Below are positions 1-35,299 of a stretch of DNA of 35,299 nucleotides, piece after piece (position 1 is the first letter of the stretch; the number at the start of each line of letters is the position of its first letter). A program made the translations under genes and the position numbers. The notes below the pieces were generated by a model that was not told the DNA's origin, made no database searches, and saw nothing but the letters and a program-made list of their open reading frames with translations. Source of the DNA: Bacteroidales bacterium. GTDB taxonomy: Bacteria > Bacteroidota > Bacteroidia > Bacteroidales > UBA932. The stretch lies in assembly GCA_017546585.1 (NCBI GenBank), contig JAFYWC010000103.1, positions 1-35,299 on the forward strand. The letters are read 5' to 3'.

Positions 1-19
1 CGGTTTTTCTTTCTCCGTA

Positions 20-27
20 CAAACATA
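20..27 (-). promoter_or_regulatory. possible -7 promoter element for a gene left of the window
   Basis: On the minus strand this reads TATGTTTG, matching the Bacteroidetes -7 consensus TAnnTTTG. It would drive leftward transcription of a gene lying outside the window. It is bracketed by the inverted repeat CCGTAC (15-20) and GTACGG (36-41), a possible operator. No convincing -33 element is seen, so the call is tentative. Confidence 0.35.
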
Positions 28-70
28 CCACGAAGGTACGGATTTTCGTTGCGTCACCCAAATCAACATT

Positions 71-106
71 AAAATCACCACTACAGATATCTGTGTGGCA
101 GATTTT
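71..106. repeat. imperfect palindrome, possible operator or hairpin
   Basis: AAAATC (71-76), CCAC (78-81) and ACAGAT (83-88) are mirrored by ATCTGT (89-94), GTGG (95-98) and GATTTT (101-106), with one to two unpaired bases between blocks and no spacer at the centre. The symmetry suits a dimeric DNA-binding protein. It could also form a hairpin with A- and T-tracts on its sides, that is, a weak bidirectional terminator. It lies between the leftward promoter and the rightward element at 146-247. Confidence 0.5.
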
Positions 107-145
107 ATAAAAAGTTACGAAAAAGTGATAAAGTCAGGAAAAAGA

Positions 146-178
146 TTTGCAACAATTCAGAATCTTGTTGCATCTTTG
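146..178 (+). promoter_or_regulatory. candidate rightward promoter with internal inverted repeat
   Basis: TTTG at 146-149 and CATCTTTG at 171-178 resemble the -33 and -7 boxes of Bacteroidetes, although the -7 box has CA instead of TA. The inverted repeat TGCAACA (148-154) and TGTTGCA (166-172) sits between and across them, where a repressor would act. No protein gene follows on this strand; the only target is the short region ending in the hairpin at 208-240. Confidence 0.35.
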
Positions 179-182
179 TAGC

Positions 183-247
183 AGGTTTAGGTTTTAGTAC
201 ACGTTTTAGGGGCTGTAAAGCAGTGATGCTTTCAGCCCCTTATCTTT
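183..247 (+). ncRNA. candidate small RNA of about 65 nt
   Basis: Between the candidate promoter and a strong terminator-like hairpin lies about 65 bases with no reading frame of note. The arrangement of promoter, short segment, stable GC-rich hairpin and T-run is that of a small RNA gene. I do not recognise its family. Alternatively the hairpin may simply stop transcription entering from elsewhere. Confidence 0.3.
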
Positions 248-250
248 TTT
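208..250 (+). terminator. intrinsic terminator hairpin
   Basis: AGGGGCTG (208-215) pairs with CAGCCCCT (233-240), and AAAGCA (217-222) pairs with TGCTTT (227-232) around a GTGA loop. A T-rich tract with six consecutive Ts (245-250) follows on the + strand. On the minus strand no T-run follows the stem, so it is not a standard terminator for corA, which ends at 264. Confidence 0.65.
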
Positions 251-263
251 CAGGTCCTTAGAC

Positions 264-10388: not shown

Positions 10389-11149
10389 ACTTTTCTTAAA
10401 TTTAATGCATTAATTGTTTTCGGAACGTTGTCGTGACCGCCTTTGATGTACTCTCCGTTGCTGGTTTTGTACTCTGTTTCTGTGCTGAGGCCGTTGCCGA
10501 CTTCCTTATGCCACTTGTAAGTGATGCTGACTTTTGCACTGTCCTGCTGGATATATGTGCTGAGCGGGAAGCTTACATAGCCACCTCCCATCTGATATAG
10601 GGCTGCGTTATCTTCACCAAGTGTCTCGCCGAAAGCATTGTGTCTGAGTGAGAATGCATACTCTTCTGCCTTGTCGTCCTCTACGTCCACAAGATTGATG
10701 AGGTGCGCTGTCGTGCTTCCTGTCTTTACTGGGAACATAACGTAGAGATTGAGGTAACCTCCTGAAATCCAAGCCTGCTCAAGGCGGATAGGGTCCTCTG
10801 TGACTTTCAATGTGTCAGTCTCTGCAATAGTGCTTGACGGAACGATCTCTTTTGTAAGAACATATCCGATTCCATTGAGTCTGATGTCATACTCATTCTC
10901 TGCTCCGCCTGCGGTCTTGTTCAAGATATCACAGAGAATGATGGCTCTGTGCATTGTATCAAGCTGACCCTGGCAGCTCTGCTCCACCACGTTGAAGATG
11001 TTTCCCTGATCTGACACAAATCTACCGTCAACGATATTGCCCATTGTGGTGTTGTAGTACTTGATGGTGTTGTCCTTCTGGCAGGATGCGCCGATGAGGC
11101 AGGCGAGGCCAAGCGCTATGTAAGTGATTGATTTCGTGAAAATTCGCAT
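10376..11149 (-). CDS. NigD-like lipoprotein
   Basis: A 257-residue lipoprotein. The start at 11149 (MRIFTKS) is chosen because it begins a clear signal peptide ending CLIGASC with the lipid-attachment Cys; the 26 residues upstream in frame overlap the fur-like gene and have no signal character. The body (YNTTMGNIV, DGRFVSDQGNIFNVVEQ) resembles the NigD family of Bacteroidetes, named from a Bacteroides bacteriocin locus but widespread with unknown function. It should be beta-rich and surface or periplasm facing. It lies 28 bases after the fur-like gene and is probably co-transcribed with it, which hints at metal or redox control. Confidence 0.7.
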   Translation of the reverse strand: MRIFTKSITYIALGLACLIGASCQKDNTIKYYNTTMGNIVDGRFVSDQGNIFNVVEQSCQGQLDTMHRAIILCDILNKTAGGAENEYDIRLNGIGYVLTKEIVPSSTIAETDTLKVTEDPIRLEQAWISGGYLNLYVMFPVKTGSTTAHLINLVDVEDDKAEEYAFSLRHNAFGETLGEDNAALYQMGGGYVSFPLSTYIQQDSAKVSITYKWHKEVGNGLSTETEYKTSNGEYIKGGHDNVPKTINALNLRKVLQN

Positions 11150-11177
11150 TGTATTATCTTTATGTGAAACTCTGTTT

Positions 11178-11627
11178 TTAGACTGTGTATTTCTTGCGGG
11201 TAGGACGGCCGATGAGCTGGATGTCAAAGCTCTCGATCTTGTATCCCTTGACTCTCTTCCTGCTCAGATGTGATTCGATGAGCTTTACAAGTTCGTCATC
11301 TATGACATCCCTGAAGGTGTGGTTGTCGTGATCATAGAAGTGGATGTGCTTGAATGTGTTGACATCGAAGTACATCTTGTTGTTTGAACTCATCCTGTAG
11401 TGGTACACGCCGAGCATCGCCATCTGAGTGAGGATGTTGTATACTGAAGCCACTGTCACCTTGGCAGTGCTGTTCTCCTTGATGGCGTCTGTGACCATAT
11501 CCGCACTGGCGTGTCCCAATGAAATCATTGCCTCGTGTACAGCCAGACGTTGAGGGGTGGCCTTGAGCGAGTGTTTTTTTAAAATGTCCTTGAATTCTTC
11601 AAGTGTAGGGCATTTGTGACTGTTCAT
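11178..11627 (-). CDS. Fur-family transcriptional regulator lacking the CxxC zinc site
   Basis: A 149-residue Fur-like repressor. A winged-helix DNA-binding domain (about 1-85) with KATPQRLAVHEAMISLGHASADMV and VASVYNILTQMAMLGV is followed by a short dimerisation domain with HIHFYDHDNHTFRDV. At the position where Fur and PerR normally have the HxxC-x2-C structural zinc site there is no Cys, only His and Asp. The only Cys is near the N-terminus. Metal sensing must therefore rely on the His/Asp cluster. The start at 11627 (MNSHK) fits the promoter; the longer frame would begin upstream of the predicted transcript start. The target may include the adjacent NigD-like gene. Confidence 0.85.
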   Translation of the reverse strand: MNSHKCPTLEEFKDILKKHSLKATPQRLAVHEAMISLGHASADMVTDAIKENSTAKVTVASVYNILTQMAMLGVYHYRMSSNNKMYFDVNTFKHIHFYDHDNHTFRDVIDDELVKLIESHLSRKRVKGYKIESFDIQLIGRPTRKKYTV

Positions 11628-11646
11628 ATCATTCGATTTAGAAGCG

Positions 11647-11677
11647 CAAATATATCGCAATTGATTTAAAAGTCAAA
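11647..11677 (-). promoter_or_regulatory. promoter of the fur-like gene
   Basis: TATATTTG (11647-11654) and TTTG (11674-11677) on the minus strand are 19 bases apart, a near-ideal promoter. It is divergent from the SDR promoter about 80 bases away. Confidence 0.8.
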
Positions 11678-11731
11678 ATAAATTTGAAAGATTCTAATCT
11701 GTTAAAAGTCCATTTATTTTCAATAAATGTA

Positions 11732-11760
11732 TTGAATCCGGTAAAAAAGTGGTATTTTTG
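11732..11760 (+). promoter_or_regulatory. promoter of the SDR gene
   Basis: TTG (11732-11734) and TATTTTTG (11753-11760) are 18 bases apart. This places transcript start near 11764 and supports translation from 11786. Confidence 0.75.
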
Positions 11761-11785
11761 CGCCCGTTTGGAATTGAATAAGATT

Positions 11786-12631
11786 ATGAAGAAGATTTTT
11801 AACCATTTCAGGTCATACGCTCTCGTAACCGGAGCCGCTTCGGGTATGGGACGTGTGTACGCTGTAAAACTTGCCCTGATGGGCTACAACCTCGTGGTTG
11901 TGGATATCAATGCAGCAGGTCTGGAGGAGACAGCAGCCATCGTGAACGGTGCTGTAGCTGCTGCAGATTCGCTTACGTCTGAGCAGAAGGGAAGTTTCAG
12001 GATAATGCAGATCGCTCAGGATCTGTCTGTCCTCGATGCAGCCGACAAGGTGTTTGAGGCTACCGAGGCGGCAGGATGTGTGGTGGACGTGCTTGTGAAC
12101 AATGCAGGTGTGATGTACTGCCAGGGCATCGCTGAAACTTCGGAGAGAATGCTCAAGATCATTATGATGGTGCATATGGTGACTCCTATGCTTCTTTCGA
12201 GAAAATATGTAGTCGGAATGAAGGAGAGAGGACACGGATATATGCTGAACATCTCGTCGCTCGCGGCTTGGATGAGCTGGCCTGGAATCGGAATGTATGG
12301 AAATACAAAGAGATTCGTGAAGGGATACTCGCGCGAACTCCGTATCGAGTGCCAGAAGACAGGAGTAAGCATCACAAATGCATATTTCGGCGCTGTGGAT
12401 ACGCCGCTCATCCCGCTTAAGGACAGCCTGCGCAAGCTGGCGCGCTGCCTTGCGGTTATGATTACTCCGGAGAAGGCTACTGATAGAGCGCTCAATGCTA
12501 TGTTCCGCAGAAGAAAGGGCACTATGCCTGGCCTTCTGAACAAGATCTTCCTGCCTATAGTAATCATCCTTCCTGATTGTCTGCTGGGATGGTTTTACAG
12601 AATGGCGAAGCCCCATCTGATGAAAGTCTGA
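11786..12631 (+). CDS. short-chain dehydrogenase/reductase
   Basis: A classical SDR of 281 residues from the start at 11786 (MKKIFNHF). It has the cofactor motif TGAASGMG near residues 15-22, an Asp at the end of beta-2 (VVVDIN) that favours NAD(H), NNAGV, a catalytic Ser in LNISSLAA, and YGNTK for the Tyr-Lys pair. The C-terminal about 30 residues are unusually hydrophobic (IFLPIVIILPDCLLGWFYRM), suggesting membrane association. The substrate is unknown; a lipid or ketone reductase is possible. The longer in-frame start at 11684 lies upstream of the promoter and is rejected. Confidence 0.85.
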   Translation: MKKIFNHFRSYALVTGAASGMGRVYAVKLALMGYNLVVVDINAAGLEETAAIVNGAVAAADSLTSEQKGSFRIMQIAQDLSVLDAADKVFEATEAAGCVVDVLVNNAGVMYCQGIAETSERMLKIIMMVHMVTPMLLSRKYVVGMKERGHGYMLNISSLAAWMSWPGIGMYGNTKRFVKGYSRELRIECQKTGVSITNAYFGAVDTPLIPLKDSLRKLARCLAVMITPEKATDRALNAMFRRRKGTMPGLLNKIFLPIVIILPDCLLGWFYRMAKPHLMKV

Positions 12632-12640
12632 AAAAAATGT

Positions 12641-12648
12641 TATATTTG
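12641..12648 (+). promoter_or_regulatory. -7 element of trxB-bamD
   Basis: TATATTTG, nine bases after the SDR stop and 23 before the trxB start. No clear -33 TTTG is seen. Confidence 0.6.
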
Positions 12649-12671
12649 CAGATTGCGCAATACGTATAAAA

Positions 12672-13595
12672 ATGGAAACAGTTAAATGTCTTATTATCGG
12701 AGGCGGTCCGGCAGGTTATACTTCTGCCATCTATGCTTCAAGAGCCGACCTCGCACCAGTAGTATATGAGGGTATTCAGCCAGGTGGTCAGCTTACTACT
12801 ACCACTGATATCGAGAACTACCCAGGATTCGAAAACGGCATTTCAGGTCAGCTCCTTATGGACACAATGAAGGCTCAGGCAGTTCGCCTCGGAGCCGATA
12901 TCCGCACTGGAGCAGTCACTGAGGCTGACCTTTCAAAGAGACCTTTCAAGATCGTCATCGATGGATCGAAGGAAGTATATGCAGAGACACTCATCATCGC
13001 GACAGGTGCAACTGCAAAGTATCTCGGTCTTCCTTCAGAGATCAAATACCGTGGCCTCGGCGTTTCTGCCTGCGCTACTTGTGACGGTTTCTTCTACAGA
13101 AAGAAGACTGTAGCTGTAGTCGGCGGCGGCGATACAGCTTGTGAGGAGGCTACATACCTTGCAGGACTTTGCAAGAAGGTATATATGATCGTCCGCAGAG
13201 ATGTACTTCGCGCATCTGAGGCTATGCAGGAGCGTGTGAGAAATACAGAGAACATCGAGATTCTCTGGAACTGCAACACTCAGGAGGTTCTCGGAGACGA
13301 ATATGGTGTTACAGGAGCAAGACTCGTAAGAAAGGATGGCGAGGTTTTTGATATCGCTGTCGACGGATTCTTCCTCGCTATCGGACATCATCCTAACTCT
13401 GATCTCTTCAACCAGTGGGTTGCTGTAGACAAGGAGGGTTACATCATCACAGACGGCAAGACTGCAAAGACCAATGTAGAGGGGGTGTTTGCTGCCGGTG
13501 ACGTGCAGGATCCGCTTTACAGACAGGCTATTACAGCCGCAGCATCAGGCTGCCGTGCAGCTCTGGATGCAGAGAAATTCCTTAAAATGCAGTAA
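12672..13595 (+). CDS. trxB: thioredoxin-disulfide reductase
   Basis: TrxB passes electrons from NADPH through FAD to thioredoxin. The 307-residue length is usual. It shows an N-terminal FAD motif (IIGGGPAGYTSAIYASRA), GQLTTTTDIENYPGF, the redox-active CATC (Cys134 and Cys137), the NADPH motif VVGGGDTACEEA with VRRD, and the C-terminal FAD motif VEGVFAAGDVQD. bamD starts directly after its stop codon. Confidence 0.97.
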   Translation: METVKCLIIGGGPAGYTSAIYASRADLAPVVYEGIQPGGQLTTTTDIENYPGFENGISGQLLMDTMKAQAVRLGADIRTGAVTEADLSKRPFKIVIDGSKEVYAETLIIATGATAKYLGLPSEIKYRGLGVSACATCDGFFYRKKTVAVVGGGDTACEEATYLAGLCKKVYMIVRRDVLRASEAMQERVRNTENIEILWNCNTQEVLGDEYGVTGARLVRKDGEVFDIAVDGFFLAIGHHPNSDLFNQWVAVDKEGYIITDGKTAKTNVEGVFAAGDVQDPLYRQAITAAASGCRAALDAEKFLKMQ

Positions 13596-14489: not shown

Positions 14490-14501
14490 AAATATTTGAA
14501 A

Positions 14502-20903: not shown

Positions 20904-20911
20904 TAATTTTG
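20904..20911 (+). promoter_or_regulatory. -7 element of the nadK-uppS unit
   Basis: TAATTTTG, 35 bases before the nadK start. A minus-strand box TAAATTTG (20863-20870) for pdxJ lies about 35 bases away, so the two divergent promoters share this gap. Neither has a strong -33 match. Confidence 0.55.
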
Positions 20912-20945
20912 GCGCCTGATTGCAAATAAAATACGGCATTACAAG

Positions 20946-21767: not shown

Positions 21768-21769
21768 TT

Positions 21770-22498: not shown

Positions 22499-22503
22499 TT
22501 GCT

Positions 22504-22511
22504 TATATTTG
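22504..22511 (+). promoter_or_regulatory. -7 element of bamA
   Basis: TATATTTG, six bases after the uppS stop. It places the transcript start near 22515 and supports the bamA start at 22538 over the in-frame ATG at 22499, which would precede the transcript. Confidence 0.6.
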
Positions 22512-22537
22512 CAGTTTTGAATTTAAGGAATATCAAG

Positions 22538-25123
22538 ATGAGAATTTGCCGAATAGTCTTCCTGGCGTTTATGATGGCTCTGTCGTTCCCTATGTGGGGA
22601 CAGCAGGCCGGCAAAGACGTTGTGGTGGACTACAACAATCCAAAGAAATATATAGTAGGTGGTGTCAGGGTAGAGGGTAACAACTACTTTTCACAGGAGC
22701 AGATCCTTCAGGTGACCGGCCTTCAGAAAGGTCTTGAGATCACTGTGCCAAGTGAGGAGGTGTCGGGAATCGTGAACAGGTTGTGGCTCCAGAAGTACTT
22801 CGAGGATGTGGCTGTGGCCATCGACTCGATCGCTCCTTCCCGTGATACGGCCTTCTTCAAGATTTCAGTGTCGGAGCGTCCGCGTGTATCGAGATGGACA
22901 TTCAGCGGTGTCAAGAGCGGTGAGCAGAAGGAACTCCTTGAGAGACTGAACCTTCGTCGAGGCGGTGAGTTCTCGGATTATGTGGCAAAGACGGCGTCTG
23001 ACATCATCAAGAGATACTATAAGGAAAAGGGATTCCTCAATGTCGAGGTTGACGTGAACACAAAGAAGGATACAGTCATCAACAAGGCTATCCGAGTTCA
23101 GTTTGCAGTTGACAGAGGAGAGAAGGTAAAGATCAAGACCATCACATTCGAAGGAAACGACAATGTAAAGGAGACAAAGCTCGTCCGCTCGATGAAGAAG
23201 ACAAGGGATTCCCGCCTTATGAACTTCTTCAGTTCAAAGAAATTCAACGAAAGCGAATACGAAAACGACAAGCGTGCTATGATCAGCGCCTTCAACGAGG
23301 CCGGATACAGGGACGCGAGAATCGTGAAGGATACGATGTACTACATCGAACCGGGCCGTCTCCAGATCGATTTTGAGATCGATGAAGGAAAGAAATACTA
23401 CTTCAGAGACATCACCTGGACAGGTAACTCGGTATATGCGTCAGAAACTCTCGACGAGATCCTGATGATTCAGAAGGGTGACGTATATGATGTGGTTACA
23501 ATGGAGAAACGTCTCTTCGGAGGCGGAAAGCAGAGCGAGTACGACATCTCGAAGCTTTACCGTGACAACGGTTACCTCTTCTTCAATCTCCAGCCTGTAG
23601 AGATGAATATCGAGGGCGATTCTGTGGATGTGGAACTCCGCATCGTCGAGGGCAAGCCTGCGACATTGAACAACATCGTGATCAACGGTAACGATCTGAC
23701 CAACGAAAGGGTTATCCGCCGTCAGGTCTTTACTCGTCCGGGTTATCTTTTCAGCCAGTCTGATTTCGAACGCTCCATCAGAGAGATCGCTTCAATGGGA
23801 CAGTTTGATCCTGAGGCTATCACAGACCCTGCGACAGGATACTCTATCATCCCGAACCAGTTGAACAACACGGTAGACCTTGTATATAACGTGACAGAGA
23901 AGCCGTCAAGCCAGCTTGAGCTTTCCGGCGGTTGGGGCGGAAACACATTCGTGGCGACAGTCGGAGTGAGCTTCAACAACTTCTCAACACGCAGATTCTT
24001 TGACAAGACTGCTTGGCGTCCCGTACCACTCGGAGATGCACAGAACCTTTCAGTGCGCTTCCAGACAAACGGAACATATTATACGAGTCTTTCGGCAAGT
24101 TTCTCTGAGCCTTGGCTCTTCGGAAAGAAGCCTACCTCGCTCAATATGTCTCTGTACTATACACGCCAGACCAACTCATACCTTGCATTCAATATCCTGA
24201 ACAATGACCAGTATATGGAGGTTTACGGATTTGCGGCAGGTATCGGTAAGCGTCTCAAGTGGCCGGACAACTACTTCGTGCTGTACAACCAGTTGAGCTG
24301 GCAGACGTATAACCTCCACGATTGGGTATATCAGTTTATGTTCGATACAGGTATTTCGCACAACCTCAGCTATACTTTGAGCCTCTCGCGAAATTCTACC
24401 GACCAGCAGATCTATCCTCGTCAGGGTTCAGACTTCAGCTTCTCGCTTCAGCTGACTCCTCCTTACTCGCTTCTCAGAAAGAAGAATCTTGGAGTTCTTG
24501 ATGCTGAAGGAAACCCTACAAAGGTTTCTGATTGGAGAGACATCAACTACGACCTTCAGACATCGCAGCAGAGATACAAGTGGATCGAGTATCACAAGTG
24601 GTCATTCAAGGGTGCGGTCTACACAAAACTCGTAGGAGACCTCGTCCTGATGGCAAGAGCACAGTTCGGATATCTCGGATACTACAACAGAAACTGGGGA
24701 TATTCACCATTTGAGGGATTCCGTGTCGGTGGTGACGGTATGTCCGGATATGACACTTACGGTTCGGAGATCGTATCGCTCAGAGGTTACGAGAACTACT
24801 CGCTTACACCTCTTGCGACTGACAACAGTTCGACCGGTAACTATTATGCCGGTAACGTTTACGACAAGTTCACTGTCGAGCTCCGTTATCCTGTCATTCT
24901 CCAGCCGCAGTCTACCATCTATGCATTGCTCTTCCTCGAGGGGGGTAACTGCTGGTCAGACATCAGAAGCTTCAATCCGTTCCAGATCAAGAGGTCTGCC
25001 GGTGTCGGTGTGAGAGTGTTCCTCCCGATGATCGGTCTTCTCGGAGTTGACTGGGGATGGGGATTCGATGATCCAGTAAACGGAAAGAGCCAGTTCCACT
25101 TCGTGATCGGACAGCAGTTCTAA
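22538..25123 (+). CDS. bamA: outer membrane protein assembly factor BamA
   Basis: BamA is the central pore of the machine that folds beta-barrel proteins into the outer membrane. From the start at 22538 it has 861 residues: signal peptide (ending MWGQQAG), five POTRA domains (about 35-435; recurrent patterns such as VGGVRVEGNNYFSQEQIL and YYFRDITWTGNSVYASETL), then a C-terminal 16-strand barrel. The barrel ends in FVIGQQF with terminal Phe, the outer-membrane targeting signal. A small palindromic repeat follows the stop codon, then ompH. Confidence 0.95.
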   Translation: MRICRIVFLAFMMALSFPMWGQQAGKDVVVDYNNPKKYIVGGVRVEGNNYFSQEQILQVTGLQKGLEITVPSEEVSGIVNRLWLQKYFEDVAVAIDSIAPSRDTAFFKISVSERPRVSRWTFSGVKSGEQKELLERLNLRRGGEFSDYVAKTASDIIKRYYKEKGFLNVEVDVNTKKDTVINKAIRVQFAVDRGEKVKIKTITFEGNDNVKETKLVRSMKKTRDSRLMNFFSSKKFNESEYENDKRAMISAFNEAGYRDARIVKDTMYYIEPGRLQIDFEIDEGKKYYFRDITWTGNSVYASETLDEILMIQKGDVYDVVTMEKRLFGGGKQSEYDISKLYRDNGYLFFNLQPVEMNIEGDSVDVELRIVEGKPATLNNIVINGNDLTNERVIRRQVFTRPGYLFSQSDFERSIREIASMGQFDPEAITDPATGYSIIPNQLNNTVDLVYNVTEKPSSQLELSGGWGGNTFVATVGVSFNNFSTRRFFDKTAWRPVPLGDAQNLSVRFQTNGTYYTSLSASFSEPWLFGKKPTSLNMSLYYTRQTNSYLAFNILNNDQYMEVYGFAAGIGKRLKWPDNYFVLYNQLSWQTYNLHDWVYQFMFDTGISHNLSYTLSLSRNSTDQQIYPRQGSDFSFSLQLTPPYSLLRKKNLGVLDAEGNPTKVSDWRDINYDLQTSQQRYKWIEYHKWSFKGAVYTKLVGDLVLMARAQFGYLGYYNRNWGYSPFEGFRVGGDGMSGYDTYGSEIVSLRGYENYSLTPLATDNSSTGNYYAGNVYDKFTVELRYPVILQPQSTIYALLFLEGGNCWSDIRSFNPFQIKRSAGVGVRVFLPMIGLLGVDWGWGFDDPVNGKSQFHFVIGQQF

Positions 25124-25149
25124 TGTCATTCCGAGCCCGTCGGGAATCT
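25124..25149. repeat. small palindromic intergenic repeat, copy 1
   Basis: Immediately after the bamA stop, this 26-base block begins TGTCATTCCGAG and ends GGGAATCT, and its two halves pair (ATTCC with GGAAT, and GA with TC). It shares its layout with 28758-28788. Similar short palindromes are scattered after genes in many Bacteroidetes genomes, as far as I recall. Confidence 0.5.
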
Positions 25150-25177
25150 AATTGATTAATAAATTAAAACAATAATT

Positions 25178-25750
25178 ATGAAGAAAATCATCATTATCGC
25201 AGCGATGGCGCTTATGTCAGTAGCTGCAATGGCACAGGAAACAAAGTTCGCTTATGTGGACTTCAACGAGATCATAATGCTTATGCCTGAAATGGATGAG
25301 GCAAGAGCGGCTCTCGAGGAGAACCAGAAGACAAACGAGGAAATCCTTATGGCGATGTACGAGGAGTATCAGTCAAAGGTGCAGCAGTACGAGCAGAAGT
25401 CAGCGACTTGGACACCTGCAATCCGTGAGAGCAAGGAGAGAGAGATTATGGAGATCCAGTCAAGACTCGAGCAGACTCAGCAGAGCCTCCAGCAGGAGCT
25501 TCAGCAGCTTCAGCAGAACCTTCAGGCTCCTATTTATGAGAAGGCTCAGACAGTGGTTTCTGACCTTGCAAAGTCTAAGGGTGTAGCAGCAGTTTTCGAG
25601 AAGGGATCGCTTCTTTATCTCGATCCTGCAATGCTTGTAGACCTTACTCCAGATGCAAGAAAGGCTCTCAATATCCCAGAGGGAAGAACAATCGAGACTC
25701 TTCAGGCGGAAATGATGGCTAAGGCACAGGCAGCACAGGGCCAGTATTAA
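25178..25750 (+). CDS. OmpH/Skp-family periplasmic chaperone
   Basis: A 190-residue Skp-like chaperone with a cleavable signal peptide (MSVAAMAQE, cleavage near residue 20). The mature start FAYVDFNEIIMLMPEM is typical. A Gln- and Glu-rich coiled coil follows (about 45-125, with repeated QLQQ units). It delivers unfolded outer-membrane proteins to BamA, whose gene is just upstream. A strong terminator follows. Confidence 0.93.
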   Translation: MKKIIIIAAMALMSVAAMAQETKFAYVDFNEIIMLMPEMDEARAALEENQKTNEEILMAMYEEYQSKVQQYEQKSATWTPAIRESKEREIMEIQSRLEQTQQSLQQELQQLQQNLQAPIYEKAQTVVSDLAKSKGVAAVFEKGSLLYLDPAMLVDLTPDARKALNIPEGRTIETLQAEMMAKAQAAQGQY

Positions 25751-25764
25751 TATTCGGACAAATA

Positions 25765-25809
25765 TAAAGACGGCATCACGGGTTTTCTGTGATGCCGTCT
25801 TTATTTTGT
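25765..25809 (+). terminator. intrinsic terminator after bamA-ompH
   Basis: A perfect 15-bp stem (25765-25779 with 25789-25803, nine-base loop) followed by TTTTG. It cleanly separates the envelope operon from korAB. Confidence 0.92.
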
Positions 25810-25851
25810 AAAATAAGTTAAAAATTGTGTCCGATGTAACGGAAAAATGTA

Positions 25852-25859
25852 TACATTTG
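25852..25859 (+). promoter_or_regulatory. -7 element of korAB
   Basis: TACATTTG, 42 bases before the korA start and after the terminator, so this must be the korAB promoter region. A TTG at 25825-25827 is further away (24 bases) than usual. Confidence 0.55.
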
Positions 25860-25901
25860 TGTCATATTCTAACTATTTGATTTAAAATCATAACACTAAC
25901 T

Positions 25902-27731
25902 ATGCAACATAAGGTAATTGATACTAAAGATGTTGTCATAAGATTCGCAGGAGATTCGGGAGATGGTATGCAGCTCACCGGGTCTCTTTTTGCAGATATG
26001 TCAGCAATCTTCGGTAACGGACTTTCCACTTTCCCGGATTATCCGGCAGAAATCAGAGCTCCCCACGGTACTGTTTCAGGTGTTTCCGGCTTCCAGGTTC
26101 ACATCGGAAGTGAGCAGGTGACTACTCCAGGTGACTTTTGCGATCTCCTGGTTGCGATGAACCCTGCAGCTCTCAAGGCTAATGCAAAATGGCTCAAGAG
26201 AACAGCTATGGTTCTCATCGATGCTGATACATTCGATGAGGAGGGCCTCAAGAGGGCCGGCCTTGGTGAAGACCCTATCACTGAACTCCATATTGAGGAC
26301 AGAACCATCATCGTGGCTCCTATCACAACCTTGACTACAGAGAGTCTCAAGGAGAGCGGTCTTGACAAGAAGACAGTCGAGAAGTGTAAGAATATGTTCA
26401 CCCTTGGAATGGCTTGCTATATCTACAACCGTCCGATGGAGTACATCTTCCAGTACCTCGAGCGCAAATTCGGAAAGAAGAAGCCAGAACTCGTAGAGCC
26501 TAACAAGAAGGTTCTCAAGGACGGTTTCAATTATGCGGCAAACATCCAGGCTATCGCGAACACATACAGCATCGAGCCTGCAAACCAGCCGAAAGGTCTT
26601 TATAGAAACATTACAGGTAACCAGGCGACAGCTTGGGGACTTCTTGCTGCGGCAGAGAAGGCAAACCTCCCTCTCTTCTGCGGTTCATATCCTATCACAC
26701 CTGCTACAGGCATCCTTGAGGAGCTTGCGCTTCACAAGAGCCTCGGTGCAAAGACTGTCCAGGCAGAGGATGAGATTGCGGGTGTATGTACAGCGATCGG
26801 TGCTGCTTTCGCCGGCAGCCTTGCTGTGACAACAACTTCAGGTCCTGGTCTCTCCCTCAAGTCTGAGGCTCTGGGTCTTGCAGTTATGACAGAACTTCCG
26901 CTCGTGGTCGTTGACGTTCAGCGTGCCGGCCCATCTACCGGTATCCCTACAAAGACAGAGCAGACTGACCTCAATCAGGCTCTCTATGGACGTAACGGTG
27001 AGTGTCCTATGGTCGTTATGGCGGCTCATTCTCCGGCAGACTGCTTCGATGCGGCATTCTATGCATCAAAGATCGCTCTCGAGCATATGACTCCTGTCCT
27101 CCTTCTTACAGAAGGCTTCCTTGGAAACGGCTCTGAGCCTTGGCTCATCCCTTCAATGAAGAACTATCCGAAGATCGTACCTCCATTCGCTCAGCCTAAC
27201 ACTGAGTACAAGCCTTTCCAGAGAGACCCAGAGACTCTTGCACGTCGTTGGGCTGTCCCAGGAATGGCAGGATGCGAGCACAGAGTCGGCGGTCTTGAGA
27301 AGACACACGCTGGCACAATCTCATCAGATCCTGCAAACCACGCCCTTATGGTCAGCGAGCGCGAGGAAAAGGTGAGAAGAGTAGCAAACTATATCCCTGA
27401 ACTCAAGGTTGACGGCGCTGAGAGCGGCAAGCTCCTCCTCGTCGGCTGGGGTGGAACATACGGACATCTCCTTTCTGCTGTACAGGAGGCGCGCGCTGAG
27501 GGTCTCGAAATCAGCTTCGCTCATTTTGACTACATCAAGCCTCTTCCAAGAAACACAGAGGAAGTGTTCGGCAAGTTCGAGAAGATCCTCGTATGTGAGT
27601 TGAACAGCGGACAGTTTGTGAACTATCTCCGTGGAGAAATGCCTCAGTTCAAGTACGAGCAGTTTAACAAGGTACAGGGACAGCCGTTCCTCGTACAGGA
27701 AATCGTAGGTGCAATTAAAGAGAATTTGTAG
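25902..27731 (+). CDS. korA: 2-oxoacid:ferredoxin oxidoreductase, fused gamma-alpha subunit (KorA)
   Basis: With KorB this oxidises a 2-oxoacid, most likely 2-oxoglutarate, to the acyl-CoA and reduces ferredoxin; the reverse reaction fixes CO2. The 609 residues comprise a gamma domain (about 1-195, IRFAGDSGDGMQLTGSLFADMSA) fused to an alpha domain (about 215-609) with CGSYPITPATGILEELA, QAEDEIAGVCTAIGAAFAG and TTTSGPGLSLKSEALG. This gamma-alpha fusion is the common 2-oxoglutarate form. Substrate is by family; pyruvate or branched acids are less likely. Next to korB and gdhA. Confidence 0.9.
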   Translation: MQHKVIDTKDVVIRFAGDSGDGMQLTGSLFADMSAIFGNGLSTFPDYPAEIRAPHGTVSGVSGFQVHIGSEQVTTPGDFCDLLVAMNPAALKANAKWLKRTAMVLIDADTFDEEGLKRAGLGEDPITELHIEDRTIIVAPITTLTTESLKESGLDKKTVEKCKNMFTLGMACYIYNRPMEYIFQYLERKFGKKKPELVEPNKKVLKDGFNYAANIQAIANTYSIEPANQPKGLYRNITGNQATAWGLLAAAEKANLPLFCGSYPITPATGILEELALHKSLGAKTVQAEDEIAGVCTAIGAAFAGSLAVTTTSGPGLSLKSEALGLAVMTELPLVVVDVQRAGPSTGIPTKTEQTDLNQALYGRNGECPMVVMAAHSPADCFDAAFYASKIALEHMTPVLLLTEGFLGNGSEPWLIPSMKNYPKIVPPFAQPNTEYKPFQRDPETLARRWAVPGMAGCEHRVGGLEKTHAGTISSDPANHALMVSEREEKVRRVANYIPELKVDGAESGKLLLVGWGGTYGHLLSAVQEARAEGLEISFAHFDYIKPLPRNTEEVFGKFEKILVCELNSGQFVNYLRGEMPQFKYEQFNKVQGQPFLVQEIVGAIKENL

Positions 27732-27733
27732 TT

Positions 27734-28753
27734 ATGCCAAGATATACATTCAAAGAATTCAAGAGTGACCAGGAAGTAAGGTGGTGCCCAGGCTGCGGTG
27801 ACCACGGTATTCTCGCAGCTCTTCAGAGAGCCCTTCCTGATGTGACTGAAGCGCTTGGATACAGCAAGGAGAGATATGTCGTTGTATCAGGTATCGGATG
27901 CTCGTCACGTCTTCCATATTATATGAATACCTATGGTTTCCATAGTATCCACGGCCGTGCGACCGCTATTGCGACAGGTATCAAGGTTGCGAATCCGGAC
28001 CTTACAGTATGGCAGGCTACAGGTGACGGTGATGCCCTTGCGATCGGCGGTAACCACTTCATTCACGCTGTAAGACGTAATGTCGACATCAACATCATCC
28101 TCTTCAACAACCAGATCTACGGTCTGACCAAGGGACAGTACTCGCCGACATCACGCTTCGGAGCGATTTCAAAGACATCTCCATATGGAACAGTTGAACA
28201 TCCTTTCAATCCAGGAAGCCTTGTTCTTGGAGCAAAGGGAACATTCTTCGCACGCTCTCTCGATTCTGAGCTCAAACTCAACTCGGAGATTATGCTCGCT
28301 GCAGCAAAGCACGACGGATGTTCTGTTATGGAAATGCTCGTGAACTGCGTGATCTTCAACGATGGTACACACAAGCTCATCTCTGACAGAGAGTTCCGTG
28401 CAGACAGAACTATCGTCCTTCGTCACGGTGAGAAGATGATCTTCGGAAAGAACCGCGACAAGGGTCTCGTTCTCGACGGTATGGGTCTCAGGGTCGTTAC
28501 AATCGGAGAGAATGGTGTGACTGAGGACGATATCCTTGTACACGACGCACATTCCGACAATGTCGGCATTCATATGATGCTTGCAGATATGAAGTATCCT
28601 GATTTCCCTGTAGCTCTCGGAGTAATCCGTGACGTCAAGGATGTTACATACGATGACGGTGTAAGAGATCAGGTGAACGACCAGAAGGCAAAATCAAAGA
28701 TCCAGTGCGTTGACGACCTGCTCCGCAGCGGCAGCACTTGGGAAGTGAAATGA
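27734..28753 (+). CDS. korB: 2-oxoacid:ferredoxin oxidoreductase, beta subunit (KorB)
   Basis: The thiamine diphosphate-binding subunit, 339 residues. WCPGCGDHG (Cys18, Cys21) begins the family signature, and GDGDALAIGGNH with NNQIYGLTKGQYSPTS forms the ThDP/Mg site. It starts two bases after korA. The two subunits together form the enzyme. Confidence 0.92.
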   Translation: MPRYTFKEFKSDQEVRWCPGCGDHGILAALQRALPDVTEALGYSKERYVVVSGIGCSSRLPYYMNTYGFHSIHGRATAIATGIKVANPDLTVWQATGDGDALAIGGNHFIHAVRRNVDINIILFNNQIYGLTKGQYSPTSRFGAISKTSPYGTVEHPFNPGSLVLGAKGTFFARSLDSELKLNSEIMLAAAKHDGCSVMEMLVNCVIFNDGTHKLISDREFRADRTIVLRHGEKMIFGKNRDKGLVLDGMGLRVVTIGENGVTEDDILVHDAHSDNVGIHMMLADMKYPDFPVALGVIRDVKDVTYDDGVRDQVNDQKAKSKIQCVDDLLRSGSTWEVK

Positions 28754-28757
28754 CGAA

Positions 28758-28788
28758 TGTCATCCCGAGCGTAGTCGAGGGATCTCAC
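28758..28788. repeat. small palindromic intergenic repeat, copy 2
   Basis: Four bases after the korB stop, this block begins TGTCATCCCGAG and contains GTCGAGGGATCT. ATCCC pairs with GGGAT and CGA with TCG. It is a longer form of the repeat after bamA (25124-25149), in the same orientation. Confidence 0.5.
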
Positions 28789-28824
28789 ACTAATATCATA
28801 ACCAATAAAACATAACACAACAAA

Positions 28825-30165
28825 ATGAACACACAGGAATTGATGGCCAAACTTCAGGCCAAGTATCCGTATGAGAAAGAGTACCTCCAGGCAGTACACG
28901 AAGTATTGGAGTCTATCGAGGAGGTTTACAACCAGCACCCAGAGTTTGAGAAGGCTAAGATCGTTGAGCGTATCGTAGAGCCTGAGCGTATCCTTACATT
29001 CAAGGTTACTTGGGTTGACGACAACGGTGAAGTTCAGACAAACACAGGTTACAGAGTACAGTTCAACTCTGCTATCGGACCATATAAGGGAGGTCTTCGT
29101 TTCCACCCATCTGTAAATCCTTCGATCCTTAAGTTCCTCGGTTTTGAGCAGACTTTCAAGAATGCCCTCACTACTCTCCCTATGGGTGGCGGTAAGGGAG
29201 GTTCAGACTTCAACCCACGCGGAAAGTCAGAGGCTGAAATTATGCGCTTCTGCCAGGCATTTATGCTTGAGCTTTGGAAGGTGATCGGCCCAGATCAGGA
29301 CGTACCTGCAGGTGATATCGGAGTAGGTGGCCGCGAGATCGGTTATATGGACGGTATGTACAAGAAGCTTGCTCAGCAGTACAACACAGGAGTTCTCACA
29401 GGTAAGGGTCTTACTTGGGGTGGTTCTATCCTCCGTCCAGAGGCTACAGGTTTCGGTGCAGTTTACTTCGTTGAGCATATGCTTCAGCTTGCTGGCAAGG
29501 ACATCAAGGGCAAGACAATCGCTCTCTCTGGCTTCGGTAACGTAGCTTGGGGTGCCGCAACAAAGGCTACTGAACTCGGTGCAAAGGTTGTAGCGATTTC
29601 AGGTCCTGACGGAGCAATCTACGATCCAGAGGGAATGAACGCAGAGAAGATAGCTTATATGCTTGAGCTCCGCGCTTCCAACAACGACGTTGTGGCTCCT
29701 TTCGCTGAGAAGTTCCCATCTGCAACATTCTACCCAGGCAAGAAGGCTTGGAGCATCAAGTGTGATATCGCAATGCCTTGCGCATTCCAGAACGAGCTTA
29801 CAGGTGCTGACGCTGAGGAACTCCTTGCTAACGGTACTTGGCTTGCTGCTGAGGTTTCGAATATGGGATGTACTCCTGAGGCTATCGCAGCATTCCAGAA
29901 GGCTGGCATTATGTTCGCCCCTGGTAAGGCAGTGAACGCAGGTGGTGTTGCAACTTCAGGTCTTGAGATGACTCAGAACGCTATGCACATCAGCTGGAGT
30001 CCTGCTGAGGTTGACGAGAAACTCCACGCAATTATGTCTAACATCCACGAGGCTTGCGTTAAGTACGGTACTCAGCCAGACGGATACATCAACTACGTGA
30101 AGGGTGCGAATATCGCCGGCTTTATGAAGGTTGCACAGGCAATGCTTGAGCAGGGAATTATTTAA
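28825..30165 (+). CDS. gdhA: glutamate dehydrogenase (GdhA)
   Basis: The enzyme interconverts glutamate and 2-oxoglutarate plus ammonia. The 446 residues match the hexameric small-subunit class, usually NADP-linked. Visible: GPYKGGLRFHPSV (85-97), LPMGGGKGGSDF with catalytic Lys124, VPAGDIGVGGREIGYM, and the dinucleotide motif SGFGNVAWGAA. Codon bias is strong, so expression should be high. It is located between korAB and two dicarboxylate carriers. Cofactor preference is not certain from the sequence. Confidence 0.95.
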   Translation: MNTQELMAKLQAKYPYEKEYLQAVHEVLESIEEVYNQHPEFEKAKIVERIVEPERILTFKVTWVDDNGEVQTNTGYRVQFNSAIGPYKGGLRFHPSVNPSILKFLGFEQTFKNALTTLPMGGGKGGSDFNPRGKSEAEIMRFCQAFMLELWKVIGPDQDVPAGDIGVGGREIGYMDGMYKKLAQQYNTGVLTGKGLTWGGSILRPEATGFGAVYFVEHMLQLAGKDIKGKTIALSGFGNVAWGAATKATELGAKVVAISGPDGAIYDPEGMNAEKIAYMLELRASNNDVVAPFAEKFPSATFYPGKKAWSIKCDIAMPCAFQNELTGADAEELLANGTWLAAEVSNMGCTPEAIAAFQKAGIMFAPGKAVNAGGVATSGLEMTQNAMHISWSPAEVDEKLHAIMSNIHEACVKYGTQPDGYINYVKGANIAGFMKVAQAMLEQGII

Positions 30166-30173
30166 TTAATCCG

Positions 30174-30203
30174 TTGCTTTATTATAAATAAAGACTAACT
30201 TTG
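30174..30203 (+). promoter_or_regulatory. promoter of the first DASS transporter
   Basis: TTG (30174-30176) and TAACTTTG (30196-30203) are 19 bases apart. Its -7 box overlaps the first bases of the gdhA terminator stem. Confidence 0.75.
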
Positions 30204-30233
30204 CGCTCGTTTTTTAACGGGCGCAATTTTATT
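30201..30233 (+). terminator. terminator of gdhA, overlapping the downstream promoter
   Basis: TTGCGCTCGTT (30201-30211) pairs with AACGGGCGCAA (30216-30226), one T-G wobble, loop TTTT, followed by TTTTATT. Transcripts from the overlapping promoter would start inside the stem at about 30207 and so escape it; only readthrough from gdhA carries the whole hairpin. Confidence 0.75.
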
Positions 30234-30250
30234 AACAAAACTAACTCAAT

Positions 30251-31750
30251 ATGTTTAAGATCTTTCCCGGATACGCTCTCGTAGAGAAGTATCATAATTG
30301 GAAGAAGGCTCACAGAACAGAGGATAAGACTCTCTCAAGAGCGATACGTCTTATCTTTGCTGTCGTAGCAGCTGTCGTTCTCTGGTGCCTTCCAGTAGAG
30401 AACTGGATCGACGGTATGACCATCATCCAGAAGAGAACTCTCGCTATCTTCCTCTTCGCCATCCTTATGTGGCTCTTTGAGGCAGTTCCTGCGTGGACTA
30501 CTTCAGTGTTGGTAGTGGTTCTCCTCCTTTTCACAACATCTAACAGCAGTTTGGTGTTCTTTGAGAATGCTGCAGCTGATGTACTTGGAACTCAGACAAG
30601 CTACAAGTCTCTTCTTCACTGCTTTGCAGATCCGATCATTATGCTCTTCATCGGAGGTTTCGTTCTCGCGATCGCAGCTTCGAAGACAGGACTCGACCTT
30701 TATCTTGCACGCGTGATGCTCAAGCCTTTCGGAAAGAACCCTAAGTTCGTTCTCCTCGGCTTCCTTATGGTAACAGGTGTCTTCTCAATGTTCCTTTCGA
30801 ACACTGCGACAGCAGCGATGATGCTTACATTCCTCGGACCTGTGCTCAAGGCTCTCCCTGCAGACGGAAAGGGTAAGACTGCTCTTGCTCTCGCTATTCC
30901 TATCGCAGCAAACGTCGGTGGTATGGGTACGCCTATCGGAACACCTCCAAATGCGATCGCCCTCAAATATATGTCTGAGATTGGCATCGAGATCGGATTC
31001 GGTCAGTGGATGGCATTTATGATTCCTTTCACTATCCTCCTTCTCGTTATCGCTTGGGTTATGCTCCTCAAACTTTTCCCATTCAAGGCTAAGGAGATTA
31101 CTCTTAACATCGAGGGTGAACTTAAGAAGGACTGGAGATCAATCGTTGTCTACATCACTTTCATCTGCACAGTTCTCCTTTGGGTTCTTGACAAGAAGAC
31201 AGGTGTAAATGCAAACGTAGTTGCTATGCTCCCTGTAGGTGTGTGCGCTATCATCGGTGTCCTCACCAAGCGTGACCTCGAGGAGATCAGCTGGTCTGTT
31301 CTTTGGATGGTAGCCGGTGGTTTCGCACTCGGTGTTGCTCTCCAGGAGACAGGTCTTGCAAAGACTCTCATCGCAGCTATCCCATTCGATCAGTGGCAGC
31401 CAATGATTATGGTTGTAGGTTCAGGTCTCATCTGCTACGCAATGGCGAACTTCATTTCGCACACTGCGACTGCCAACCTCCTCGTTCCAATCCTTGCACT
31501 CGTCGGAGCAAGCATCTCGACAATCCTCGCACCTCTCGGTGGAGTTTCAACTCTCCTCGTTGGTGTCGCTATCGGATCGTCACTCGGTATGGTGCTTCCT
31601 ATCTCGACTCCACCAAATGCGATTGCAGCATCAACTGGTATGATCGAGCAGAAGGATATGGTGAAGACAGGTCTCATTATGGGTATCGTTGGTCTCGTAC
31701 TCGGATACGGTATGCTTATCGTACTCGGTTCAACCGGATTCTTCGGTTAA
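30251..31750 (+). CDS. DASS/SLC13-family anion transporter (SHT variant)
   Basis: A 499-residue inner-membrane carrier of the divalent anion:sodium symporter family, with about eleven hydrophobic segments and two-fold repeat. The first repeat has SNT at 183-185 and GTPIGTPPNAIALKYM; the second has S403-H404-T405 and STPPNAIAAST. In Na+-coupled members the second motif is also SNT and its Asn helps hold Na+. His here suggests altered or absent coupling at that site. Likely substrates are succinate or other C4 acids, by family and context. A similar carrier follows. Confidence 0.88.
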   Translation: MFKIFPGYALVEKYHNWKKAHRTEDKTLSRAIRLIFAVVAAVVLWCLPVENWIDGMTIIQKRTLAIFLFAILMWLFEAVPAWTTSVLVVVLLLFTTSNSSLVFFENAAADVLGTQTSYKSLLHCFADPIIMLFIGGFVLAIAASKTGLDLYLARVMLKPFGKNPKFVLLGFLMVTGVFSMFLSNTATAAMMLTFLGPVLKALPADGKGKTALALAIPIAANVGGMGTPIGTPPNAIALKYMSEIGIEIGFGQWMAFMIPFTILLLVIAWVMLLKLFPFKAKEITLNIEGELKKDWRSIVVYITFICTVLLWVLDKKTGVNANVVAMLPVGVCAIIGVLTKRDLEEISWSVLWMVAGGFALGVALQETGLAKTLIAAIPFDQWQPMIMVVGSGLICYAMANFISHTATANLLVPILALVGASISTILAPLGGVSTLLVGVAIGSSLGMVLPISTPPNAIAASTGMIEQKDMVKTGLIMGIVGLVLGYGMLIVLGSTGFFG

Positions 31751-33346: not shown

Positions 33347-33359
33347 CCTTATTATATAT

Positions 33360-34775
33360 ATGAAAAGAACATTTATCACACTTTTATCTCTTATCCTGAC
33401 CTTGCCGATGTTTGCGGCGGGTGCTGCTGAGAAGCAGGATACCCAGGTCAAGGAGCATCTCCAGAATCATTACAAGTTATACGGCTTCATCCGTAACTAT
33501 TTCATATATGATTCGCGTGAAAGCAAGTCGGGTACATCAGACCTCTTCTATTATATGCCTTTGGACAAGAAGATGAATGAGGACGGAACTCTGGATCTCA
33601 ATGATCACGGATCTTTCCGCTTCGTTGCTCTTACTTCACGAGTCGGTCTTGATGTGACAGGCTATCAGATGAACAATGTACATTTCGGAGCAAAGTTCGA
33701 AGCGGATTTCTATGCCGGACTTTCGTCAGTCAGCAAGGATACTTATCCTAAAGTAGGTGCATATTTCCCTGGAAACACAAGCATTTCAGGAACGGCTCAG
33801 ATGCGTCTTCGTCAGGCTTATGCGACAGTGACCTGGAAGGACCTTCCGTTGAACGAAGAGGAAAAGGCTTCTGTGGCTCTTAAGATAGGACAGGCTTGGC
33901 ATCCTATGGGTGCAGACTTTCCGCACGTGTTCAGCCTCGAGGTCGGCGCTCCTTTCGGACCGTTCTCTCGTACACCGCTTGTTCAGATGGATGCTAATCT
34001 CGGCAAGAGCTGGGTCGTGACAGCTGCGGCATTGTGGCAGATGCAGTATAACTCTCAGGGACCTGTCGGCGCTTCCGCTATATATATGAAATATGGTATG
34101 ACTCCTGAGTTGTATGCTGCGGTGGCCTATAAGAACAATGGATTCCTTTTGAGGGCCGGTGCGGATCTTTTGAGCATCAAGCCGAGAGTCTATGGACAGG
34201 TTGACGGAGTCACTGTAAAGGTGTCGGATCGTAAGACTTCACTCCTATATTATATATATAGCCAGTATACGAAGGGAAAGTTCGGCCTCAAGCTGAAATC
34301 AACCTTTGGTGAGGGCGGTGAGCATATGAACCTGATGTCCGGTTATGCAAAGGTAGGGGAGAGTGTAGATGGAAGCTGGGAATATGCTTCGCTCCGCAGT
34401 TCGTCGACCTGGCTTTCGATGATCTACGGAAAGAAATGGCAGGGAGTGATGATGCTCGGTTATACAAAGACTTTAGGATTGGCTCATCCTCTTGATGGCA
34501 ATATCGCTGCATCCAATGTCTATTTCTGTGGCAACGGTTTCTCGAACATCAATCAGATCTATAGAATCAATCCGCAGGTTGTATATAATATAGGTAAGAT
34601 GAATGTCGGATTGGAGTACCAGTGGACAGCTGTTCAGTATGGCGAGTATATGGATATGAATGGTGACAAGTGGGTGTCAGGTGATAAATATCTGAATAAT
34701 CGTGCTCTTGCGACTGATGGATTGCACTGGATCGGAAATCATCGTGTGAATATGATGATCAAGTACAATTTCTAA
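33360..34775 (+). CDS. outer-membrane beta-barrel protein, porin-like
   Basis: A 471-residue exported protein. The signal peptide is clear (KRTFITLLSLILTLPMFAAG, cleavage near AAGAAE). The mature part begins KLYGFIRNYFIYDSRES and has alternating polar and aromatic residues in many predicted strands, ending MIKYNF with terminal Phe, the outer-membrane barrel signal. It resembles DcaP-like porins, which carry dicarboxylates, but I cannot assign a family firmly. It probably shares a transcript with the second DASS gene, so a joint route for dicarboxylates across both membranes is reasonable. Confidence 0.75.
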   Translation: MKRTFITLLSLILTLPMFAAGAAEKQDTQVKEHLQNHYKLYGFIRNYFIYDSRESKSGTSDLFYYMPLDKKMNEDGTLDLNDHGSFRFVALTSRVGLDVTGYQMNNVHFGAKFEADFYAGLSSVSKDTYPKVGAYFPGNTSISGTAQMRLRQAYATVTWKDLPLNEEEKASVALKIGQAWHPMGADFPHVFSLEVGAPFGPFSRTPLVQMDANLGKSWVVTAAALWQMQYNSQGPVGASAIYMKYGMTPELYAAVAYKNNGFLLRAGADLLSIKPRVYGQVDGVTVKVSDRKTSLLYYIYSQYTKGKFGLKLKSTFGEGGEHMNLMSGYAKVGESVDGSWEYASLRSSSTWLSMIYGKKWQGVMMLGYTKTLGLAHPLDGNIAASNVYFCGNGFSNINQIYRINPQVVYNIGKMNVGLEYQWTAVQYGEYMDMNGDKWVSGDKYLNNRALATDGLHWIGNHRVNMMIKYNF

Positions 34776-34817
34776 ATGAAAAATATGTTTCCCATCAAAG
34801 ATGAGGGTAAATAAGAG

Positions 34818-34843
34818 AATCGGGCCTGGTGCCCGATTTTTTT
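34818..34843 (+). terminator. intrinsic terminator after the barrel gene
   Basis: AATCGGGC (34818-34825) pairs with GCCCGATT (34831-34838), loop CTGGT, followed by seven Ts. Confidence 0.9.
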
Positions 34844-34942
34844 ATTTAAGATTGTTATTTGCTTATTGTGTTGACAGGCAGCGAGTTGGCTATATGTGTG
34901 CTAAAAAAGTGTGAAAAAAGATTAAAAAATGTTGCAGAAAAA

Positions 34943-34973
34943 TTTGGAAGTAAAGAAAAAAGTCGTACCTTTG
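34943..34973 (+). promoter_or_regulatory. rRNA promoter P1
   Basis: TTTGG (34943-34947) and TACCTTTG (34966-34973) are 19 bases apart. A short hairpin, CCCATTT with AAACGGG-type pairing (34978-34994), begins right at the predicted start. Confidence 0.85.
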
Positions 34974-34976
34974 CAC

Positions 34977-35263
34977 TCCCATTTGAAAAACGGGTGACTG
35001 TAAAGGTCGAGAGTTCTTATGAAGACTGACGCTGAAAAATAAAAATTGAAAAATTTTTGCAAAAAAGTTTGGAAATTAAAAAATAAAGCGTACCTTTGCA
35101 TCCCCAATCAAAAACGGGGTCCTCGCAAGAGGATTTGACAAGTTCATTGAAAAGACTGATTTACTGTACAAGAAGCAAGTACCGAGAAATACAATTTATC
35201 GAGAAGCGTTAATTTCTTTTGAAATTATAAGTGTCAGGAACAAGCTAAAGATATAAAAATTAT
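34977..35263 (+). other. rRNA operon leader
   Basis: The transcribed region from P1 to the 16S start contains no gene. Besides the two start-site hairpins it has a GNRA-loop hairpin, TCCTC-GCAA-GAGGA (35120-35133). The A/T-rich rest presumably holds antitermination and RNase III processing elements, which I cannot place exactly because the 3' partner lies beyond the window. Confidence 0.6.
35068..35098 (+). promoter_or_regulatory. rRNA promoter P2
   Basis: TTTGG (35068-35072) and TACCTTTG (35091-35098) are 19 bases apart, the same boxes and spacing as P1, 125 bases downstream. CCCC (35102-35105) and GGGG (35116-35119) flank an A-rich loop at its start. Confidence 0.87.
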
Positions 35264-35299
35264 ACAATGAAGAGTTTGATCCTGGCTCAGGATGAACGC
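35264..35299 (+). rRNA. rrs: 16S rRNA, 5' end (partial)
   Basis: AGAGTTTGATCCTGGCTCAG at 35271-35290 is the universal 5' segment of 16S rRNA; counting back seven bases places position 1 near 35264. It continues GATGAACGC as in Bacteroidetes. The window stops after 36 bases. Confidence 0.97.

Follow-up and report, generated by a model that had tools for sequence, protein, structure and literature searches.

Loss of the tetranucleotide CATG from a chromosomal contig of an uncultured Bacteroidales bacterium

Results

Absence of CATG From the Window

The stretch of DNA analyzed here (the window) takes in all of contig JAFYWC010000103.1, a chromosomal contig of 35,299 bases from the assembly GCA_017546585.1 of a Bacteroidales bacterium, and the subject of this work is the tetranucleotide CATG, which is missing from it. 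For the codon-phase counts, 28 open reading frames (ORFs) comprising 10,436 codons were picked from 39, with the overlapping or doubtful ones excluded. The gene pair pdxJ/nadK, named from a reading of the translations, occupies positions 20116-21767. The window ends in what we take to be the first bases of the 16S rRNA gene, before its V1 region, and Rfam gave only one tRNA in the window.

A preliminary description, made from the letters of the window, had reported that CATG was absent from all of it, and a string count indeed gave 0 in 35,299 bases. The number expected was 168.2 in 100 dinucleotide shuffles (standard deviation 11.8), 146.5 under a Markov-2 model and 137.5 from base composition, the last of these agreeing with the 130-140 that had been estimated. 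Among the 16 tetranucleotide palindromes, CATG was the sole one missing with respect to the Markov-2 expectation. CTAG was low, with 9 occurrences (about nine had been reported) against 41 expected, and the remaining 14 palindromes lay at 0.79-1.03 of their expectation. This is the pattern of site avoidance, in which one short palindrome is significantly depleted and the other words are normal, with CTAG also low in this case.

The loss extended to every codon phase and to the bases outside the ORFs. None of the 313 codons preceding ATG ended in C, when codon usage predicts 87.7; histidine before a codon starting with G was encoded by CAC in 41 of 41 cases (16.6 CAT expected); and xCA was never found before TG (21.4 expected). 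These three biases had been described correctly from the letters of the window, except that isoleucine before methionine was said to be always ATT, and the counts were ATT 14 and ATA 6. The 3,935 bases outside the 28 ORFs also contained no CATG (8.4 expected). Hence, the claim that the loss was common to all genes and spacers held for the window, but not for the assembly as a whole, in which islands of DNA carry CATG.

Distribution of CATG in the Assembly

The assembly of this genome (G000) has 2,494,267 bases in 163 contigs and is 95.6% complete; the window is the whole of its contig C50. In addition to the window, 100 further stretches were counted, 27 of them reading as N; together with the window, 900,452 bases could be read, or 36% of the assembly. 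CATG was found 750 times against 4,103 expected, with a strongly bimodal distribution: 303 of the 423 2-kb windows had no CATG, 26 had one and 94 had two or more. The tetranucleotide was near zero in most stretches of the sampled assembly and near normal in islands. A normal density of CATG elsewhere in the genome, the outcome named beforehand as contrary to the claim, was not found overall in this 36%, although the islands came near to it.

The backbone, defined in a partly circular way as the sampled DNA that remained after the CATG clusters were set aside, held 19 CATG in 701,239 bases, of which 10 lay over 500 bases away from the end of a stretch. About 3,000 would be expected, a figure scaled from the 1,516 expected in the 354,132 bases of 31 stretches free of CATG. 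The islands held 731 CATG in 217,798 bases, and their boundaries fell inside contigs, as in contig C73, where all 12 CATG of a 20-kb stretch lay within its first 3.2 kb. Conjugative elements and a restriction-modification (R-M) cassette were among the CATG-bearing islands; a Pfam scan of 20 island proteins gave two conjugation proteins (L010, L243), and most of the others either had no match or did not suggest mobility. The islands presumably represent recently imported DNA. Separately, a run of PFK, Dus and LpxK genes with 23 CATG sites (L023:12697-16485) was found adjoining 12.7 kb of CATG-free DNA, and is likely a recent homologous import of housekeeping genes, or a chimera.

Relatives and Extent of the Loss

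The closest relatives were ranked by a glutamate dehydrogenase scan, of which the best 80 were kept. The nearest among these were uncultured Bacteroidales from the guts of water buffalo, goat and water deer, and by sequence this genome would belong among the uncultured gut Bacteroidales. The nearest genome found, the sister G403, was also devoid of CATG in the 20 kb aligned to the window (Table 1), and contained 4 CATG in seven stretches against about 490 expected. In the next relatives (G321, G508, G344, and G319), with identities of 72-75% over the shorter query and 72-81% in longer alignments, CATG was normal at 0.74-0.83 of expectation. The lineage-wide loss proposed at first is therefore real for this genome and its sister, but does not reach the next relatives at 72-81% identity.

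Furthermore, 299 genomes of the family were screened in full with a 12-bit pattern containing CATG, using the reversed pattern (GTAC) as a control. This genome gave 113+115 counts for CATG and 693+682 for the control. In the genus of this genome, CATG exceeded the control in 41 of the 62 listed members, as counted manually, and a ratio of 0.2 or lower was found in eight genera by reading of the table. Examples of a low ratio were G213 (26 CATG, 819 control), G286 (39 and 744), G192 (72 and 1,411) and G111 (102 and 1,736). CATG was also near zero in G437 (1 against 76 expected) and G554 (0 against 82).

Replacement of the Ancestral Sites

An ancestral CATG site was defined as a position with CATG in at least three relatives and in at least three quarters of those covering it, the relatives being projected by BLAST. 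This genome retained 0 of 28 such sites, when the other words with ancestral sites were retained at 0.61-1.00, some of them from few sites (GCGC 1, CGCG 2, ACGT 4). The sister G403 retained 0 of 23, and the replacement was identical to that of this genome at all 23. Since all of these replacements are shared, the purge predates the split from G403.

The 28 sites had become TATG (10), CACG (7), CTTG (4), CATA (3), CGTG (1), CAAG (1), AGTG (1) and GATG (1). Twenty-five of the changes were synonymous, two were nonsynonymous and one lay outside the ORFs; transitions and transversions both occurred, in all frames. At sites divided by the codon boundary as CAT-G or xCA-TG, the word disappeared chiefly through CAT becoming CAC and xCA becoming xCT, which are T-to-C and A-to-T changes. 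Selection against CATG by any silent route fits this spectrum and a single mutation type does not, the depletion being, as in site avoidance, through selection rather than through one type of mutation. A mutagenic modification, for instance a 5-methylcytosine in CATG that deaminates to leave TATG or CATA, had been suggested in the preliminary description, and 13 of the 28 lost sites did become one of these two words. However, the other 15 became neither; the CAT-G and xCA-TG sites, where C-to-T and G-to-A changes are nonsynonymous, were emptied equally, mostly through CAC and xCT; and mutation pressure alone should leave residual sites. We consequently give this suggestion very little credence.

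An artefact of library preparation or assembly, such as the use of NlaIII-cut libraries, might be suspected in a draft of 163 contigs. Nevertheless, the homologous positions contained substituted bases and not breaks, a second genome (G403) carried the same replacements, and the CATG-rich islands were located inside contigs, so that the probability of such an artefact is close to nil.

Loss of Other Palindromes and Depletion in Phages

A survey of all tetramers was carried out in the same-gene neighborhood of 75 of 80 loci, from Bacteroidales and a few neighbors, after five loci shorter than 9 kb were dropped. Thirty-one tetramers fell below 0.1 of expectation and all 31 were palindromes (1,130 palindrome tests against 8,983 tests of other words). 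By word, they were CTAG 19, CATG 4, AGCT 3, GATC 3, ACGT 1 and GGCC 1. That the near-absent words were only palindromes, and differed by species, indicates DNA-cutting enzymes with palindromic sites of varied specificity. The same result bears on avoidance at the level of RNA, by a CAUG-specific ribonuclease or an effect on translation. A palindrome carries no strand signal, and the window by itself does not separate such avoidance from one acting on DNA; but the exclusive presence of palindromes among the near-absent words, their variation between species and the emptiness of the bases outside the ORFs make an RNA-level cause highly improbable.

Other uncultured Bacteroidales lacked a palindrome in 12-21 kb of sequence: AGCT in L026 and L045 (0 against 52 and 50 expected, respectively), GATC in L033 (0 against 40) and ACGT in L034 (0 against 50). 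In Capnocytophaga sputigena (L079), CATG (2/48), CTAG (5/72) and GGCC (3/40) were all low; as a named species, it is a possible test organism.

Additionally, the phage contig C158, binned with this genome, contained 3 CATG against 42 expected, and was compared with 22 relatives from viral contigs, grouped by helicase identity. In the eight closest (87-99% identical, with three of the helicase matches partial and some of the eight perhaps copies of one phage), CATG was at 0.10-0.22 of expectation; two of them lacked ACGT and six were low in GATC. The values were 0.87-0.99 in six relatives at 81-82% identity and 0.43-0.85 in the other eight, at 54-78%. This CATG-poor clade is consistent with restriction and points to it, the assignment to this host being by binning only. 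In the phages L311, L324, and L325, CATG, ACGT (2/24, 0/42, and 0/43) and GATC were depleted together, as if they faced several restriction systems.

NlaIII-Type Systems and Other Methylases

The specificity of NlaIII is CATG, and that of iceA1 is reportedly the same. The corresponding Pfam family, ICEA, was searched in 299 genomes of the family and 400 of the genus, two samples that overlap. Matches above the cut-off were obtained in 3 of the 299 (G286, G291, and G184) and in 4 of the 400 (G384, G437, G286, and G611), giving six sampled relatives as carriers, the sister G403 being neither among them nor listed by name in any of these searches; the match in G286 was a fragment. Two carriers were nearly CATG-free, G286 and G437, with the counts given above. 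G291 (274 against 921 for the control; 7/32 in 6 kb) and G184 (378 against 891; 9/24) were partly depleted, and G384 had 2 CATG against 12 expected in its R-M locus, its sole readable stretch. G113, whose match of 18.9 bits did not reach the cut-off and whose CATG was normal, was excluded from the carriers.

In G291, the NlaIII-type operon, flanked by pdxJ and nadK, is composed of a methylase, the NlaIII/ICEA nuclease and a D12 methylase. This gene pair is a possible integration hot spot, since the operon lies between the two genes in G291 (L106) and beside pdxJ in G384 (L316, which ends inside the operon). The operon of G184 has an extra gene of 379 amino acids (L105:349-1488) with a weak match to the EVE domain, below the Pfam cut-off. 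In the window, nothing was seen that conflicts with the original statement that it contains no responsible gene.

The methylase families D12, N6_N4 and C5 were searched in 20 genomes chosen by eye from the low-ratio end of the screen, with G230, G172, and G211, of similar ratios, omitted. No D12, N6_N4, C5 or Eco57I-type methylase was matched at E ≤ 1e-6, with PF02384 outside the search, in three genomes poor in CATG: G111 (a single 2.18-Mb contig, 92% complete), G232 (96%) and G234 (89%, with 8% contamination). Several candidates were rejected. Eco57I-type methylases did not track the loss of CATG, being present in 6 of the 18 genomes poor in CATG and in 3 of the 6 where it was normal; G403 had none, in the only methylase search that named it. 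Scanning the sampled DNA for methylase motifs gave no CATG system, and a match in L013 was traced to a CotH-kinase protein. As AccI is known for a different site, the AccI-like system found in G554 was discarded as the cause. A SacI-like R-M pair, formed by a C5 methylase and an RE_SacI nuclease (L215:1-3200; L148), lies on contig C73 in the island with all 12 CATG of the 20-kb stretch, and was rejected as the agent because its own island carries the site.

These searches bear on a nuclease that would work without a partner methylase, in a host protected by having no CATG, so that absence replaces methylation. In its favor, no recognized CATG methylase was found in this genome with the families tested, and G111, G232, and G234 are poor in CATG with none of the four families matched. 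On the other hand, draft assemblies may miss methylases, the PF02384 family was outside the search, and near-normal CATG islands occur in the same contigs as CATG-free DNA, which an active cutter should not tolerate. The islands argue against a methylase-free cutter active in this strain now, and we consider this explanation unlikely. If it were true, such a nuclease would be kept in several Bacteroidales lineages, the entire chromosome would have been recoded to do without the site, and self and foreign DNA would be told apart by vocabulary and not by methylation.

Table 1. Positions in the window of the CATG-free contig and of features related to the loss.
Feature	Position	Strand	Evidence
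CATG-free chromosomal contig, entire contig C50	1..35299	.	0 CATG against 168 expected; contig identity
Stretch common to sister genome G403, CATG-free in both	10399..30341	+	88.1% identity; 0 CATG against 81 expected (L196)
pdxJ-nadK spacer, uninterrupted here	20842..20945	.	Same pair flanks the NlaIII-type R-M operon in G291
Densest run of lost ancestral sites (CACG, TATG or CTTG here)	27803..30126	+	Holds 14 of the 28 lost sites

Discussion

The loss of CATG was probably caused by long-resident Type II restriction with self-cleavage. A Type II endonuclease cutting CATG would have resided for a long time in the common ancestor of the species and of G403, and occasional self-cleavage at unmodified sites would have made each CATG deleterious. 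Mostly synonymous substitutions would then have cleared essentially all CATG from the backbone ahead of the split between the two lineages, with the loss maintained from then on. Recent imports, namely conjugative elements, the R-M cassette and possibly recombined housekeeping segments, would still carry CATG because they have so far not been purged. The agent, which we infer to be a restriction enzyme, may have been lost very recently, may have been missed by assembly or binning, or may belong to an unrecognized family. Strong selection by a system cleaving CATG had been put forward from the window, and is supported by the loss in all frames and outside the ORFs, by the near-absence of palindromes only and by the depletion in the phage clade. 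UpaP162 of Ureaplasma parvum cuts CATG, and its authors report no homology to known restriction enzymes (PMC6191088); an unrecognized CATG enzyme is therefore plausible here.

Several observations weigh against this explanation. The hundreds of CATG in the islands imply that the sites are tolerated at present. The ICEA carrier G611 has normal CATG (22 against 29 expected, and 9 against 13 in its R-M locus), so that carrying an NlaIII-type system is not sufficient for the loss. The search for NlaIII-like enzymes that had been recommended was successful in the six sampled relatives, some of them CATG-poor, but gave no NlaIII/ICEA match at E ≤ 1 in this 95.6% complete assembly. Neither methylase of the NlaIII operon (L106 type) was matched in it at E ≤ 1e-10, and no D12 or Eco57I-type methylase at E ≤ 1e-6, with PF02384 not searched. 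The methylases that were found in the assembly were of the phage N6/N4 type, of the SacI-like C5 system and a Type I HsdM. Finally, in Helicobacter pylori CATG is the densest methylated motif and its methylase is present in all genomes (PMC10423294).

As a sub-case of long-resident Type II restriction, and with a probability that overlaps with it, a classical CATG R-M system may have been lost recently and the purge may be its fossil. This is a possibility that we hold only tentatively. Traces of lost R-M systems are common (PMC4687349); within the genus, the distribution of NlaIII operons is patchy (4 of the 400 sampled), one such operon sits at a gene pair that nothing interrupts in the window, and the islands tolerate CATG now. 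Against this, no remnant gene was seen in the searches for ICEA and for the operon methylases. Moreover, if the system is gone and so few sites have returned (19 in the backbone against about 3,000), the loss would have to be very recent relative to the 12% divergence from G403.

Whatever the agent of the proposed Type II restriction, site avoidance is usually reported as a deficit in statistical terms, and in this genome a word of four letters has been brought close to zero across hundreds of kilobases. The position of the purge on the tree can be given and other palindromes are missing from related lineages, and with this the strength of self-restriction becomes measurable from sequence. Any CATG left over probably marks DNA of recent import, and the finding hints at CATG-cutting systems yet to be identified.

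With regard to known systems, the NlaIII/IceA1 (HpyI) family, Pfam ICEA, is CATG-specific and its sampled carriers include two nearly CATG-free genomes. Unlike these, the draft assembly studied here has no match to the family, an ICEA nuclease gene with linked D12 and N6/N4 methylases not being found in it. H. pylori, whose CATG endonuclease is often lacking, differs in the opposite direction, since CATG is dense there and not avoided (PMC10423294). The restriction-site avoidance of phages, as treated in PMC6286503, concerns the phage and not the host chromosome; the C158 clade is likewise depleted in CATG, and partly in ACGT and GATC. No prior report of a bacterial chromosome that had lost a tetranucleotide entirely turned up in a limited literature search, and the words "CATG," "zero" or "absent" are not mentioned in the main text of Rusinov et al. 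(2015; PMC4687349). According to that article, avoidance rises with the lifespan of the R-M system and may be the trace of a lost one. Our case resembles the avoidance of Type II R-M sites described there in the deficit of a short palindrome in the host genome, and differs in that CATG is essentially eliminated from the backbone and that the families tested gave no cognate system. The phenomenon is an extreme variant of restriction-site avoidance, distinguished by its missing agent, by its recurrence with other palindromes in related lineages and by its completeness.

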